In this document: one piece after another, positions 8,985 through 13,594 of the stretch | Layout: every line of letters begins with the position of its first letter | How positions within the stretch are numbered: position 1 is the stretch's first letter | NCBI GenBank assembly: GCA_944362705.1 | Contig: CALVTO010000001.1 | Location: forward strand, 273,623-337,622 | Length of the DNA: 64,000 nt | Reading direction: 5' to 3' | DNA from: an uncultured Clostridia bacterium | GTDB lineage: Bacteria; Bacillota; Clostridia; Christensenellales; UBA1242 | Translations under genes and position numbers: made by a program | The notes under the pieces: generated by a model | Database searches by the model: none | What the model was told of the DNA's origin: nothing | Seen by the model: only the letters and a program-made list of their open reading frames with translations

Positions 8985-9875
8985 ATGCAGACGCATTATG
9001 TACGTTTAATTAAAGATAAGCACAAAGCAACCAAAGGCGTAACGCGTACCAATTCCAGATATTTAGCCATGCTCAAACGAGAAAAAATGCTAAACATTGT
9101 GCACGGCATCAATTGGTTTGATTATATTTGCTTTGCATTATTTGTTGTAACTACCATTGTGTTATGTTTTGTTATTAAACCTTTTACAATTACATTCATT
9201 TTATCTATTACAACCTTTTTGTTATATTCTTGTTCTAATTTACTTATTTCTCGTGGAAAACTGCTTGGACCTATTATAGGAACAATCAACAACTTTGTTT
9301 ATATTACCTTGTGTATCATTCAAAGCGTATACGGCGAAATATTTATAAATGTAGTTTTATACCTGCCACTTTCTATTGCATGTATTGTTACCTGGTATAA
9401 AAACCGTTCAGGTGAAACCGAGCAGTTAGAAATAAAGTCGTTTACACCCAAAGCATGGGTGCTTTCAACCACAATACCGCTCATAGCTTCGGCTATTGGT
9501 TACGTTATTTTAGGCGTTGTGTTGCATCAAAAACTAGCGCTTATCAATGCGTTTAGCATAGCTATTGGCGCTACGGGTGATATTATTCGTAATTTACGCT
9601 ATAAACAATTTTCTTGGTTTTATATTGTAAGTAACACACTTTCCATAACTTTATGGTTAGGTCTTTCGGTTACCGATATTTCCATGTTGCCGGTTGCGTT
9701 TAGCAGTGTGTTTGGGTTAGTTAATAGTATTCGTGGCGTTGTGTATTGGCAAAATTTATGGCATAAATCGGAAGCGTTTCAAGGTAAAATTTTAGCCAAA
9801 CGAAAACTGAACATTCGTAAAATTATCAAACTAAAACACCGTTTTCAAAAAATGAAATGGAAGGTGGGCACATAA
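8985..9875 (+). CDS. pnuC: PnuC-like vitamin/nicotinamide riboside transporter (copy 1)
   Basis: Integral membrane protein of 296 aa with about seven hydrophobic segments between residues 45 and 260. It belongs by pattern to the PnuC family of facilitators that take up nicotinamide riboside or, in relatives, thiamine or riboflavin, trapped inside by phosphorylation. Family-like marks are the LPLSIACIVTWYKNR loop near 127-141 and the last segment ending YWQNLW. The cytoplasmic N-terminal tail (ATKGVTRTNS) and basic C-terminal tail (NIRKIIKLK) are shared with the copy downstream. The start follows AAAAGGAGC. The substrate cannot be told, and no kinase gene is nearby. Confidence 0.65.
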   Translation: MQTHYVRLIKDKHKATKGVTRTNSRYLAMLKREKMLNIVHGINWFDYICFALFVVTTIVLCFVIKPFTITFILSITTFLLYSCSNLLISRGKLLGPIIGTINNFVYITLCIIQSVYGEIFINVVLYLPLSIACIVTWYKNRSGETEQLEIKSFTPKAWVLSTTIPLIASAIGYVILGVVLHQKLALINAFSIAIGATGDIIRNLRYKQFSWFYIVSNTLSITLWLGLSVTDISMLPVAFSSVFGLVNSIRGVVYWQNLWHKSEAFQGKILAKRKLNIRKIIKLKHRFQKMKWKVGT

Positions 9876-10126: not shown

Positions 10127-11122
10127 ATGTACCAAAACGATTTACTTATTAAAGGAAAAGTTACCGCCACAAAAGGCATTACAAATACAAATAGCATTAC
10201 ACAATTCGATGTTGCTATACGTCGTATTGATTTTTTGCGAGCCATTCGTTCGAAAAGCAAGTTCGACTTATGGTGGATTTTTATATTTGCAACGCTTACC
10301 ATAGCTGCAAACATTTGTATTATTGCCACGGGTAATTTTGCTTATATTTTATTACTAACCAATATAGATGTTATTTTGTTTTTAACGCAAAGCAACCTTT
10401 CTACCAAAGGTGTGATTGCTGCTTTGTATATAAGTATTGCCGAGTGTGTTGTGTACGCCGTTATTTGTTTTTTAAACGGGTTATATGGTGAAGTTATAAA
10501 GCAATTTGCGCTAAGCATACCCTTAAACATTGTAGGTATTGTTTCGTGGACAAAAAGCATAAAAACAAATAAGGGTACATCGGAATTTGGTAAACAACAA
10601 ACCATTATTGTTCGTAAAATGAATGCAAAATTATGGGTTATTACGCTTTTGCTTTGTGCTGTATTTTGTGTTACCGCATACTTTATTTTAGGTTTACTAA
10701 ACACATCTCAACTATTACTTTCAAGTTTTATGCTAACGCTTAGCGTGGCTGGTAAAATTACCTACATTTTACGTTTTACCAACCATTGGTTGTTCGGGCT
10801 TTTAAGCAATATCATCACCATTATTACGTGGACCATTATTGTGATAGGCGGAGATTTATCGCCACTAGTTATTGCTATTAGTTATGTTGCATCAGCTATT
10901 AACTGTGTGTACGGAATGTTTATGTGGGAAAACATGTACCGCAAAGTTGCCGTAAATGGGTCTATATTGTTGCAAAAACGTAACATAAATATTAAGCGCG
11001 TGGTTAAACTAAAAAAACAAATGCGTGGTACATTTACTTGGCGTAAAGCAGTAGATATGCAAGGGGAAGATATTCGTACAGCCCTTGCAAAGTACGATGC
11101 TATGTGCCGCATGCAAAAATAA
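10127..11122 (+). CDS. PnuC-like vitamin/nicotinamide riboside transporter (copy 2)
   Basis: A 331-aa membrane protein with about seven hydrophobic segments (residues 45-265), clearly a paralogue of the upstream pnuC-like gene. It shares the N-terminal ATKGITNTNS, the loop LSIPLNIVGIVSWTKS near 138-153, the last segment with MWENMYRK, and the C-terminal NIKRVVKLKK tail. The overall similarity is moderate, so this looks like an old tandem duplication that has diverged, perhaps to a different substrate. The C-terminus extends about 30 residues beyond copy 1. The start is preceded by AAAGGAAG. A 250-base gap separates the copies, leaving room for separate control. Confidence 0.6.
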   Translation: MYQNDLLIKGKVTATKGITNTNSITQFDVAIRRIDFLRAIRSKSKFDLWWIFIFATLTIAANICIIATGNFAYILLLTNIDVILFLTQSNLSTKGVIAALYISIAECVVYAVICFLNGLYGEVIKQFALSIPLNIVGIVSWTKSIKTNKGTSEFGKQQTIIVRKMNAKLWVITLLLCAVFCVTAYFILGLLNTSQLLLSSFMLTLSVAGKITYILRFTNHWLFGLLSNIITIITWTIIVIGGDLSPLVIAISYVASAINCVYGMFMWENMYRKVAVNGSILLQKRNINIKRVVKLKKQMRGTFTWRKAVDMQGEDIRTALAKYDAMCRMQK

Positions 11123-11260
11123 TGCGCAAACGAGTCATTAGAAATGGTTGTATATAGTATAAAAACACGTTTACATTTTTCGCTCAACAAACAATGTCTT
11201 GTATGTAAAGTGTTTTGCACGTTTGTTACTAGGTAGCCACGTATGCAAGAAAATATAGTA

Positions 11261-11291
11261 AAAAAACGCACACCCCAAGGTGCGTTTTTTT
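11261..11291. terminator. bidirectional terminator between pnuC copy 2 and the mTERF-like gene
   Basis: AAAAAACGCAC (11261-11271) pairs perfectly with GTGCGTTTTTT (11280-11290). The A run on one side and T run on the other let it work on both strands, suiting the convergent genes. Confidence 0.8.
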
Positions 11292-11334
11292 ATGCTTTAA
11301 ATGATATCCGCGTTTCATGTATGTATACTTTATT

Positions 11335-12711
11335 TTATATATAATAGGTTGCACTATTAAATATAAGTTCTTGCAATGTTAGTTTTGGGTGCGTTGTTAG
11401 TACTTGGTTTAACCTATGTAAAAACTCTTCTGGTGTAAGTTGTAACACATAAGGGTTTGAAATAAGTAAACTAGCAAATGTAGAAGGCTCTTGCTTTAAA
11501 AGTAAGCACGCTTGTAAAAGCCCTAAAACTCGTTCGGTGGTTACATTTTTTAAATCGCCCAAAGCCCTTTCTATGCATTCCGTATCTGCGGAGTATAAAC
11601 CTAATTGTGAAAAAATCTGCCGAACTTGTTCTTCTTGGCTAAGGTTTTTATTTATTTTGATATCTTGTGGCAATTTTGGTAAAAGTATGCGGTTTGTCCA
11701 TAACTGAATACGCCATGGCAAAATAGGGGCAGAGCTCCAACCGTACTGTTTACCTAAAAAGTGGTAGCGGTTATAAAGCCGTACATATACATATGGTTTT
11801 ATTGGTGCGCGCGTGTGCAATTCACGCCAAGATATATGATATTTTTTAGCAAAAACTTCTTCGGAAGCAACTATATCTAACGTGTTAAAGTTGTTTTGGA
11901 ATTGTTTCTGCAAAAACCTGTACCTTGCATAAAGTGTTTGAAAACTTAATTGTGTTACTTCTTCAAAATACCCATCTAGTAAAAATACCTTTGCAAACAT
12001 AAGCTTTGCATATATTTGATAGTAACTAATGGTAAATATACTTCTGTGATACACCAAATAATTGTAATTAATATTTAGTTGCATAAAAGCTTGCAAACGT
12101 TTGGCAATCATGCGTTTAGAATATAACAAAAGCGCAGGAAAGGTGTGCACTAAACGTAAAGCATATAAAGGTTTTGATGCGTGTAATATTTGTTGCACAA
12201 GCGAAATTTTTTCTTGCATTTCTTTTACAGGCAATAAAAATATACTAGGGCACTCACGAAACATTTCTACAATATCTAATTTGGCAAACCCTAACGTTTT
12301 CCATAAACACATATATTGTTTGGCTATGCGGTCATGGGCTATATCTAAAAGTTTGGGGCATTTGGCAAGCGCTGGCAAAAGTTGGTCGTAACGAATGTTT
12401 AGTACATTTCGTATAAACTTAATTTTCTCTCGTATGGCCAGCGGGTTATATAATAATAGGTTAGGGCAACCTTGCACCAAACGCATAGTAAACGGCAATG
12501 TAAAACCTAAACATTCTGCCATTTTTTTTACATCTTCATCTATGCGAAAAAATGGGTAGCCTTTCGCTTTTAAAACAATATACGAAGCTAAAGCTGCGTT
12601 TTCTGTCATTTGTAATTTTTCTGCAAAATAGCTTAAAGAATTTTGAAAATTTGCGTCATTTGTTGCGTTTTTGCCTGTTTTTTGATTGAATTCAGGTATA
12701 TTTTCTTTCAT
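11335..12711 (-). CDS. protein with mTERF-like helical repeats
   Basis: A 458-aa protein whose residues about 65-235 form repeats with a fixed spacing. The motif Cys/Phe-Pro-x-h-h recurs at 82-83 (CPNLL), 118-119 (CPKLL), 154-155 (CPSIF) and 191-192 (FPALL), that is every 36, 36 and 37 residues. Each is followed by a helix with pattern like YNPLAIREKIKFI. A related unit, SNPYVLQLTPEEFLHRL, lies at 418-434. This is the signature of mitochondrial transcription termination factor (mTERF) repeats, helical nucleic-acid-binding arrays best known from eukaryotic organelles. No signal peptide or membrane segment is seen. It has its own strong promoter and an AAAGGG site before the ATG. The function is unknown; nucleic-acid binding is inference. 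Confidence 0.65.
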   Translation of the reverse strand: MKENIPEFNQKTGKNATNDANFQNSLSYFAEKLQMTENAALASYIVLKAKGYPFFRIDEDVKKMAECLGFTLPFTMRLVQGCPNLLLYNPLAIREKIKFIRNVLNIRYDQLLPALAKCPKLLDIAHDRIAKQYMCLWKTLGFAKLDIVEMFRECPSIFLLPVKEMQEKISLVQQILHASKPLYALRLVHTFPALLLYSKRMIAKRLQAFMQLNINYNYLVYHRSIFTISYYQIYAKLMFAKVFLLDGYFEEVTQLSFQTLYARYRFLQKQFQNNFNTLDIVASEEVFAKKYHISWRELHTRAPIKPYVYVRLYNRYHFLGKQYGWSSAPILPWRIQLWTNRILLPKLPQDIKINKNLSQEEQVRQIFSQLGLYSADTECIERALGDLKNVTTERVLGLLQACLLLKQEPSTFASLLISNPYVLQLTPEEFLHRLNQVLTTHPKLTLQELIFNSATYYI

Positions 12712-12789: not shown

Positions 12790-12818
12790 ATTGTAGTTAT
12801 ATAACGGTATTTTGTCAA
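12790..12818 (-). promoter_or_regulatory. promoter of the mTERF-like gene
   Basis: On the minus strand: TTGACA (12818-12813), 17-base spacer, TACAAT (12795-12790). It lies back to back with the promoter of the exported-protein gene. Confidence 0.8.
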
Positions 12819-12853
12819 ATGCTTTATTTTAAAATAAATTTTAAAAAACATTG

Positions 12854-12882
12854 TTGACAACTTTTAGGTTGTGCCTTATAAT
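12854..12882 (+). promoter_or_regulatory. full-consensus promoter of the exported-protein gene
   Basis: TTGACA (12854-12859), 17-base spacer, TATAAT (12877-12882): every base matches the vegetative consensus at ideal spacing, suggesting high expression. Confidence 0.88.
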
Positions 12883-12900
12883 AAAGTTAATAAAACAAAA

Positions 12901-12919
12901 GAGCGAAATAAAATCGCTC
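12901..12919 (+). promoter_or_regulatory. 5' UTR stem-loop just before the ribosome binding site
   Basis: GAGCGA (12901-12906) pairs with TCGCTC (12914-12919), and GGGGGAGG follows at once. Being close to the transcript start, it may stabilise the mRNA. Regulation through it is possible but not shown. Confidence 0.45.
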
Positions 12920-12934
12920 GTGGGGGAGGAAAAA

Positions 12935-13594
12935 ATGAGAAAGGATAAAAGTATTGTAGCAATGTTTTGCGTAGCAGTTGTTGCTTTAATTGCAAGCTTG
13001 TCGGTTACTTTTGGTGTTCTGCTAACCGCAGCAGATACAACACCGGTTGCAGGGAAACAAACGGTGTATAGTATTAACATGGGGTATGGTTTAGTTGAAG
13101 AAGGCAATGTGGTAAATGTAAATGGTCAACCAAACGTTATGAAAATCAATAAAACCTTTACATACCAACCAAAAAACACCATCGAAATTAGTAACGATTA
13201 TTTACTTGAAGACTATGTAGTTCCTGGTCAAACCGCAGAAGAACTTGTAGAATATGTATATACCGATGCAGGCAACTTTATGGTAATTGCTTTTAGCGTA
13301 ACCAACGCAGGCAACTATAAAAACTTTGATGTAAGCCTTGAATTTGGCGAAAATGCAGACGAACAACTAAAAGCCAATGCTAAAATGGCATTACATAGTT
13401 ATCAAACTTACGAATTTTCAAAAGGTACAGTAGATGACCAACTAGGTGCACAAGGCACCGTTAAATTAGCACCAATTGCTGATGGTGAAACCGCATACTA
13501 TGCATTAGTGCTTTATGTACCAAATACTGCAAACATGATTTTAAATGGTCAAAGTTTTGATTTCACCATTCAAGTATACGGTTCTAGAATGTAA
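12935..13594 (+). CDS. putative exported protein of unknown function
   Basis: A 219-aa protein with a Lys/Arg start and a hydrophobic stretch at residues 6-30 (VAMFCVAVVALIASLSVTFG), a signal peptide or single anchor. The mature part is acidic and looks all-beta, with segments such as MVIAFSVTNAG and a C-terminal FDFTIQVYG. The architecture loosely recalls TasA/camelysin-type surface proteins, but no diagnostic motif was found. The ATG at 12935 has GGGGGAGGA directly upstream. It stands alone between a consensus promoter and a strong terminator, so it is a single-gene unit probably made in quantity. I do not recognise the family. Confidence 0.65.
   Translation: MRKDKSIVAMFCVAVVALIASLSVTFGVLLTAADTTPVAGKQTVYSINMGYGLVEEGNVVNVNGQPNVMKINKTFTYQPKNTIEISNDYLLEDYVVPGQTAEELVEYVYTDAGNFMVIAFSVTNAGNYKNFDVSLEFGENADEQLKANAKMALHSYQTYEFSKGTVDDQLGAQGTVKLAPIADGETAYYALVLYVPNTANMILNGQSFDFTIQVYGSRM

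Follow-up and report, generated by a model that had tools for sequence, protein, structure and literature searches.

Gene organization at the locus

We analyzed a stretch of 64,000 nucleotides (hereafter, the window) from an uncultured, gut-type Clostridia bacterium whose genome comprises 0.97 Mb on 3 contigs. The window contains an intact ORF of 458 codons plus stop at 11335..12711 on the minus strand, which is annotated here as the gene for a 458-amino-acid mTERF-type (pTERF) protein and is the single mTERF copy in this genome. Spo0A is also present in the host genome, in agreement with an initial sequence-only reading that had spoken of a sporulating bacterium. The same reading had assigned the gene its own consensus promoter. 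A putative sigma-70-type promoter with near-consensus sequence, recognized by its match to 11 of 12 consensus bases (TTGACA-17-TACAAT; 12790..12818, minus strand), does precede the mTERF gene; the perfect 12/12 match (TTGACA-17-TATAAT; 12854..12882, plus strand), however, is the promoter of a divergent gene. That gene (12851-13594; translation start probably at 12935) encodes a short exported protein without an assigned family. On the 3' side of the mTERF stop codon, a terminator-like hairpin with a 13-pair stem and a T run (11259..11292, minus strand) is common to the mTERF gene and a convergent pnuC-like gene. Two neighboring paralogous NMN-transporter (PnuC-like) genes are located at 8985-9875 and 10127-11122, and such a pair also adjoins the mTERF gene at loci L074, L078, and L079.

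Repeat units of the window protein

The sequence-only reading had described Cys/Phe-Pro-x-hydrophobic motifs starting at residues 82, 118, 154, and 191, with spacings of 36, 36, and 37, and a related unit near the C-terminus. We recovered both features: CP is found at residues 82, 118, and 154, FP at 191, and the C-terminal unit at 418-434, where NP occupies 419-420 and the proline is residue 420. Shuffling the window protein 20,000 times never gave a chain of four P-x-hydrophobic-hydrophobic motifs spaced 33-39 residues apart, and among the 413 ORFs of at least 200 amino acids in the neighborhoods examined, no non-mTERF ORF has one. The mTERF heptad rule, which places hydrophobic residues at +3, +10, and +17 from the proline, holds for 5/5 of these prolines in the window protein, against a background of 11/234 prolines when the remaining ORFs called in the first 30 kb of the window are scored. 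Expressed within the unit, a proline at position 8 and hydrophobic residues at positions 11, 18, and 25 occur in all five units.

These motifs coincide with predicted helices in an AlphaFold2 (AF2) model built on 19 sequences. The N-terminal helices (20-32, 37-49, and 54-68; residues 20-71, 12499..12654, minus strand) are part of the solenoid and lie inside the region that matches human MTERF1 (residues 16-294). They are followed by unit 1 (residues 72-107, P83; 12391..12498, minus strand; helices 72-81, 83-87, and 90-104), unit 2 (residues 108-143, P119; 12283..12390, minus strand; helices 108-117, 119-123, and 126-139), unit 3 (residues 144-180, P155; 12172..12282, minus strand; helices 144-153, 155-159, and 162-175), and unit 4 (residues 181-215, P192; 12067..12171, minus strand; helices 181-190, 192-196, and 199-211), each of which bears the motif. 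A degenerate unit 5 with a conserved cap, and then a C-terminal module, complete the protein. In total, the window protein has four clear units, one degenerate unit, and two units in its tail.

Some relatives carry 8-10 near-identical 36-amino-acid units (L082:10691-12217, L055:8727-10343, and L080:9257-10675). Close relatives differ in repeat number, while the cap is conserved, a pattern that resembles TALE or PPR arrays. We also considered a recognition code based on repeat variability. Two positions that we align with MTERF1 residues F243 and F322 (mutated in the solved DNA complexes), P+1 and P+4, are among those that vary in the near-identical arrays, yet not uniquely, and we therefore make no claim for such a code.

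Membership in the mTERF superfamily

The only Pfam family that matches the window protein is mTERF (PF02536), at 45.6 bits (E 5.8e-12) compared to a cut-off of 23.1; no TALE family is among its Pfam matches. PF02536 also matches 19/19 aligned members of the bacterial family, including the window protein (E 0.01). A single-sequence phmmer search of the PDB with the window protein reached MTERF1 at 0.001, and a profile of 18 bacterial relatives searched against PDB sequences returned MTERF3 at 1e-21, MTERF1 at 2e-17, the Tetrahymena mitoribosomal protein mS93 at 4e-15, and MTERF4 at 5e-10, with the next PDB family at 0.001.

The AF2 model has high confidence at residues 20-175 and over most of 175-310. 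Each modeled unit consists of a long helix, a short helix, and a long helix, which is the signature of mTERF proteins. Every one of the 20 best structural matches of the model is an mTERF-family protein or a mitoribosome chain. MTERF1 is the top fold match (Z 16.4 over 272 residues), and TAL effectors come next at Z ~8. The profile search and structure prediction that the sequence-only reading had proposed as checks both point to mTERF, the former well above the Pfam cut-off and the latter with a predicted triple-helix superhelix. Judged by its profile matches and modeled fold, the window protein is a bona fide bacterial member of the mTERF superfamily. It is also very divergent, with ~22% identity at best and a long branch in the tree. 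Residues 1-330 have a pI of 9.6, and the long relatives have a median pI of 8.95; the basic character of this part is no more than compatible with nucleic-acid binding.

The C-terminal cap

Degenerate unit 5 and the conserved cap together span residues 216-325 (11737..12066, minus strand), with the sequence ...LYARYRFL...SEEVFAKKYHIS..EL.... After their repeats, the relatives share ~110 residues of the form NPxILxAPxxxLxxRY...SExKxxARYxxL...ExxFxKxYGxxSxxLxxxYP. A cap profile that left out the window protein matched residues 150-320 of that protein at 58.8 bits. When the first half of the cap alone was searched against 177,635 PDB sequences, the last 63 residues of MTERF1 ranked first at a weak E of 0.1, and the eight best cap-profile matches were all to MTERF1 at the collinear place. 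This collinearity agrees with the description of the product as an mTERF-like helical-repeat protein, which is upheld by Pfam, the PDB profile search, and the predicted fold as well.

A small mTERF gene downstream of long genes and a probable fused copy

A gene of ~95 codons lies 3' of the long mTERF gene in 16/38 cases, on the same strand and either overlapping it or separated from it by no more than a few tens of bases; the 38 long genes were picked from strong Pfam matches, so that this fraction is not a population estimate. Apart from this small gene, no conserved operon partner that would point to a pathway was found in the neighborhoods examined. Pfam mTERF matches 14/14 aligned small proteins with E values of 1 or below (best, 3.6e-6), and the first small protein scores 20 bits, which is below the Pfam cut-off. 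In a search of the PDB, the small-protein profile found MTERF1, MTERF3, and MTERF4 first (best E 5e-8), and the top 14 matches were all mTERF. The AF2 model of the small protein (pLDDT 92) contains two mTERF units with a single helix on each flank, and the top 17 matches of its fold search are all mTERFs (Foldseek E 0.01-1), among which MTERF4 and MTERF3 are closest. The small proteins are acidic, with pI values of 4.1-5.1 (median 4.5), and the long ones are basic, with a median of 8.95. The acidic small protein, made separately in many branches, may bind the basic, putatively DNA-binding protein and tune it.

The window protein groups with the proteins of genomes G671, G690, and G718 in a single branch (SH-aLRT 99), in which no separate small gene is present and a tail follows the cap. 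The tails of this branch align with the small family at an hhalign E of 1.1e-11, gapless over 77 columns, and more weakly with long-protein repeats (1e-7). The small-protein profile aligns to residues 360-439 of the window protein, and the order of helices in the modeled tail is that of the small protein. The tail has a pI of 6.9, and so is not acidic, and is modeled with low confidence. Taken together, profile alignment and helix order suggest that residues 359-457 (11341..11637, minus strand) are a two-unit mTERF module that probably is a fused copy of the small gene. We grade this fusion as likely rather than proven, because both parts consist of mTERF units and some similarity is expected in any case.

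Distribution and chromosomal setting

With the family profile at 1e-5, matches were found in 54/297 genomes of one GTDB family of Clostridia with ~1-Mb genomes, in 17/42 genera, and Pfam mTERF at 1e-3 matched 57/297 genomes of this family. No credible match was found outside this family in the sampled genomes of its order, class, and phylum. Weak PF02536 matches elsewhere in the phylum (G253, G384, G304, G143, and G332) were rejected as chance, because by eye the proteins are oligoendopeptidase F, CheA, and YicC-like ORFs. Named relatives are recorded as uncultured Clostridia, Firmicutes, or Christensenella. In two genomes (loci L057:2393-5366 and L069:11316-14255), long mTERF genes are tandemly duplicated with no small gene behind them.

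In genomes G791 and G835, which belong to one genus, the mTERF gene is located between GDPD and lepA. In six other genomes of this genus (G425, G470, G507, G449, G522, and G751), GDPD and lepA are directly adjacent with nothing called between them, and the same empty gap occurs in other genera (G594, G583, G489, and G612); of the sister species checked, most have the gap empty. The window copy sits among housekeeping genes in the same neighborhood, with GDPD, lepA, and further hemN on one side and pnuC-like genes on the other; lepA adjoins on the opposite strand and does not form an operon with it. In genus g402, the pnuC-like side is common to the copies of three genomes and the lepA side to two of these. 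These occupied and empty GDPD-lepA gaps and shared flanks imply that the gene resides in the chromosome and is gained and lost at fixed sites, without a recognizable mobile element.

No copy was found by tblastn in phage and plasmid records or by peptide-pattern scans of IMG/VR, whose reach is limited to close relatives, and PADLOC, NCBIfam, and PHROGs hold no family for the window protein. On these null results, a defense or phage origin was rejected. A genome_contigs scan with the window protein as query also gave no match. A role as a group II intron splicing factor was likewise rejected, since the host's own genome contains no maturase (GIIM).

Probable common descent with eukaryotic mTERF proteins

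mTERF proteins are usually regarded as eukaryotic organellar factors. The sequence-only reading had left the choice between an ancestral form and convergence, and neither option fares well. An unrelated helical solenoid that came to resemble mTERF would fit the frequent convergence of repeat solenoids, and it would fit the low identity (only 9-18%) and the lack of clear motif conservation reported for pTERF1 (PMC11417379). The profile values of 1e-21 and 2e-17 beat every other PDB family, however, the heptad rule is satisfied in all five units, and the best matches of the cap, though weak, are to the collinear C-terminus of MTERF1. Given the cap matches and the repeat-region profile scores, we regard a shared ancestry with eukaryotic mTERF as far more likely, and convergence as very improbable.

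An ancestral presence in bacteria is disfavored by the restriction of the gene to a single family among those sampled. Occurrence in a single bacterial family of those sampled, set against the wide spread in eukaryotes, suggests transfer into the ancestor of that family. Probably this ancestor, at the base of one Clostridia family, acquired the gene in the distant past, with repeat expansion and loss thereafter. Hu et al. mention a prokaryotic origin as possible (PMC11417379).

Relation to known proteins

The sequence-only reading had also called a bacterial member unusual. The protein is indeed a real bacterial mTERF, but it is not without precedent, since pTERFs were published in 2024 (PMC11417379). 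The screen for tandem-repeat proteins by Hu et al. (2024) yielded pTERF1, which is encoded in a Clostridia MAG of ruminant gut origin; it binds ACTNNNAGTC with a Kd of 1.87 nM, and pTERF2 binds another motif (PMC11417379). Their pTERF listing comprises 5 cluster members, 14 further NCBI homologs, and 27 MGnify homologs (PMC11417379). They reported no obvious sequence similarity between pTERF and mTERF, and their pTERF section mentions neither the cap nor a partner gene (PMC11417379). Like the pTERFs, the window protein has tandem three-helix mTERF-type units, encoded in a Clostridia MAG without eukaryotic context. The pTERFs have 3-11 tandem units, and relatives of the window protein have up to 10. 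The window protein differs from them in its few, degenerate units and in its C-terminal two-unit module, which has the look of a fused partner; moreover, it obeys the heptad rule, which pTERF1 is reported to lack. It is best filed as a divergent pTERF variant, an assignment made by lineage and features. The pTERF1 motif ACTNNNAGTC has one match in the window, compared to 3.0 expected, and none near the mTERF gene.

Among eukaryotic proteins, human MTERF1 (3mva, 3n6s) superimposes its residues 73-395 on window-protein residues 16-294 (Z 16.4), with the cap collinear by a weak sequence match. MTERF1 has 13% identity to the window protein and is nuclear-encoded and mitochondrial, and we know of no separate small mTERF partner of MTERF1. 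Human MTERF3 (3m66), also mitochondrial, has the top profile score of the bacterial family (1e-21). The small bacterial protein has a fold of the type of human MTERF4 (4fzv); mitochondrial MTERF4, however, partners with the methyltransferase NSUN4, whereas the presumed bacterial partner is another mTERF. TAL effectors and STAR proteins, with their DNA-wrapping helical repeats and rapid change in repeat number, resemble the bacterial family, but their repeats have two helices, their Z scores are only ~8, and no sequence relation was found. To the published picture, the present analysis adds the restriction of members to one GTDB family among the genomes sampled, the small gene downstream of long genes, its apparent fusion in the branch of the window protein, and the GDPD-lepA gap that some copies occupy.

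Proposed function and alternatives

We propose that the window protein is a cytosolic, sequence-specific nucleic-acid-binding mTERF solenoid of the pTERF branch, and probably a dsDNA-wrapping regulator of gene expression with a fused module; for this reading as a whole, we estimate a probability of about 0.7. For residues 20-325, the model predicts triple-helix units that build a basic superhelix closed by the cap. Analogy with MTERF1 and with pTERF1 and pTERF2, both of which have been assayed, suggests that this superhelix probably wraps dsDNA at a specific site, where the bound protein may alter transcription by acting as a roadblock or terminator, as a pausing factor, or as a repressor. This DNA-bound action would probably be tuned by the small acidic mTERF, whether a separate protein or a fused module. 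DNA binding and the regulatory role are attributed to the window protein from its characterized relatives, and plant and animal mTERFs act on transcription at single sites (PMC7909791, PMC6085346).

A DNA target is not certain, because mTERF proteins also bind RNA or serve ribosome assembly (PMC7909791). The window protein could thus act, like MTERF4, mTERF9, and mitoribosomal mTERFs, by binding RNA in ribosome assembly, rRNA or tRNA maturation, or transcript stability. The best profile and fold matches include mS93 and MTERF4-NSUN4 complexes, the nearest folds of the small protein are MTERF4 and MTERF3, and plant mTERF9 works in ribosome assembly (PMC7909791), all consistent with an RNA target. 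Nevertheless, specific dsDNA is what both bacterial members bound when assayed (PMC11417379), the adjacent lepA is on the opposite strand and forms no operon with the gene, and the lack of a family-profile match in 243/297 family genomes implies that this is no general ribosome factor. We consider an RNA-directed role unlikely, though it is the main rival. The protein could also replace Rho as a general transcription terminator: 0/297 family genomes, the host's own included, have Rho above the curated cut-off, and plastid mTERF6 and mTERF8 do terminate specific operons (PMC7909791). Three weak, sub-threshold matches were the only trace of Rho in the 297 genomes. Yet Rho is missing family-wide, and an mTERF match occurs in only ~18% of a sample of the same size; genomes with and without an mTERF alike lack Rho, which makes replacement highly unlikely, and plant mTERFs end single operons rather than act generally.

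The otherwise eukaryotic and organellar distribution of the fold, the rank of TAL effectors as next structural neighbors, and the ruminant gut source of pTERF1 (PMC11417379) would suit an effector that enters eukaryotic cells, of animals or of protists in the gut, to act on their organelle DNA. By eye, however, the protein has neither a signal peptide nor a targeting-like start, its gene is surrounded by housekeeping genes, and phages and plasmids (tblastn) and IMG/VR (peptide-pattern scans) yielded no copy; we give a host-directed role scant credence.

Returning to the DNA-binding regulator, we tentatively extend it to a two-component system, which we regard as possible but doubtful as a whole. 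A long basic DNA-binding mTERF would be bound and switched by a small acidic mTERF encoded directly downstream, and in the branch of the window protein the two would be fused and self-regulated. The ancestor of one Clostridia family would have acquired an organellar-type eukaryotic factor, whose repeats were re-expanded into near-identical TALE-like arrays.

The significant profile link to eukaryotic mTERF, the shared predicted fold, the defined host lineage, and a putative small mTERF partner, on which the one published account of bacterial members that we found is silent in its pTERF section, make the origin and mechanism of bacterial mTERF testable. The near-identical repeat arrays of the relatives are a candidate programmable DNA-binding scaffold.
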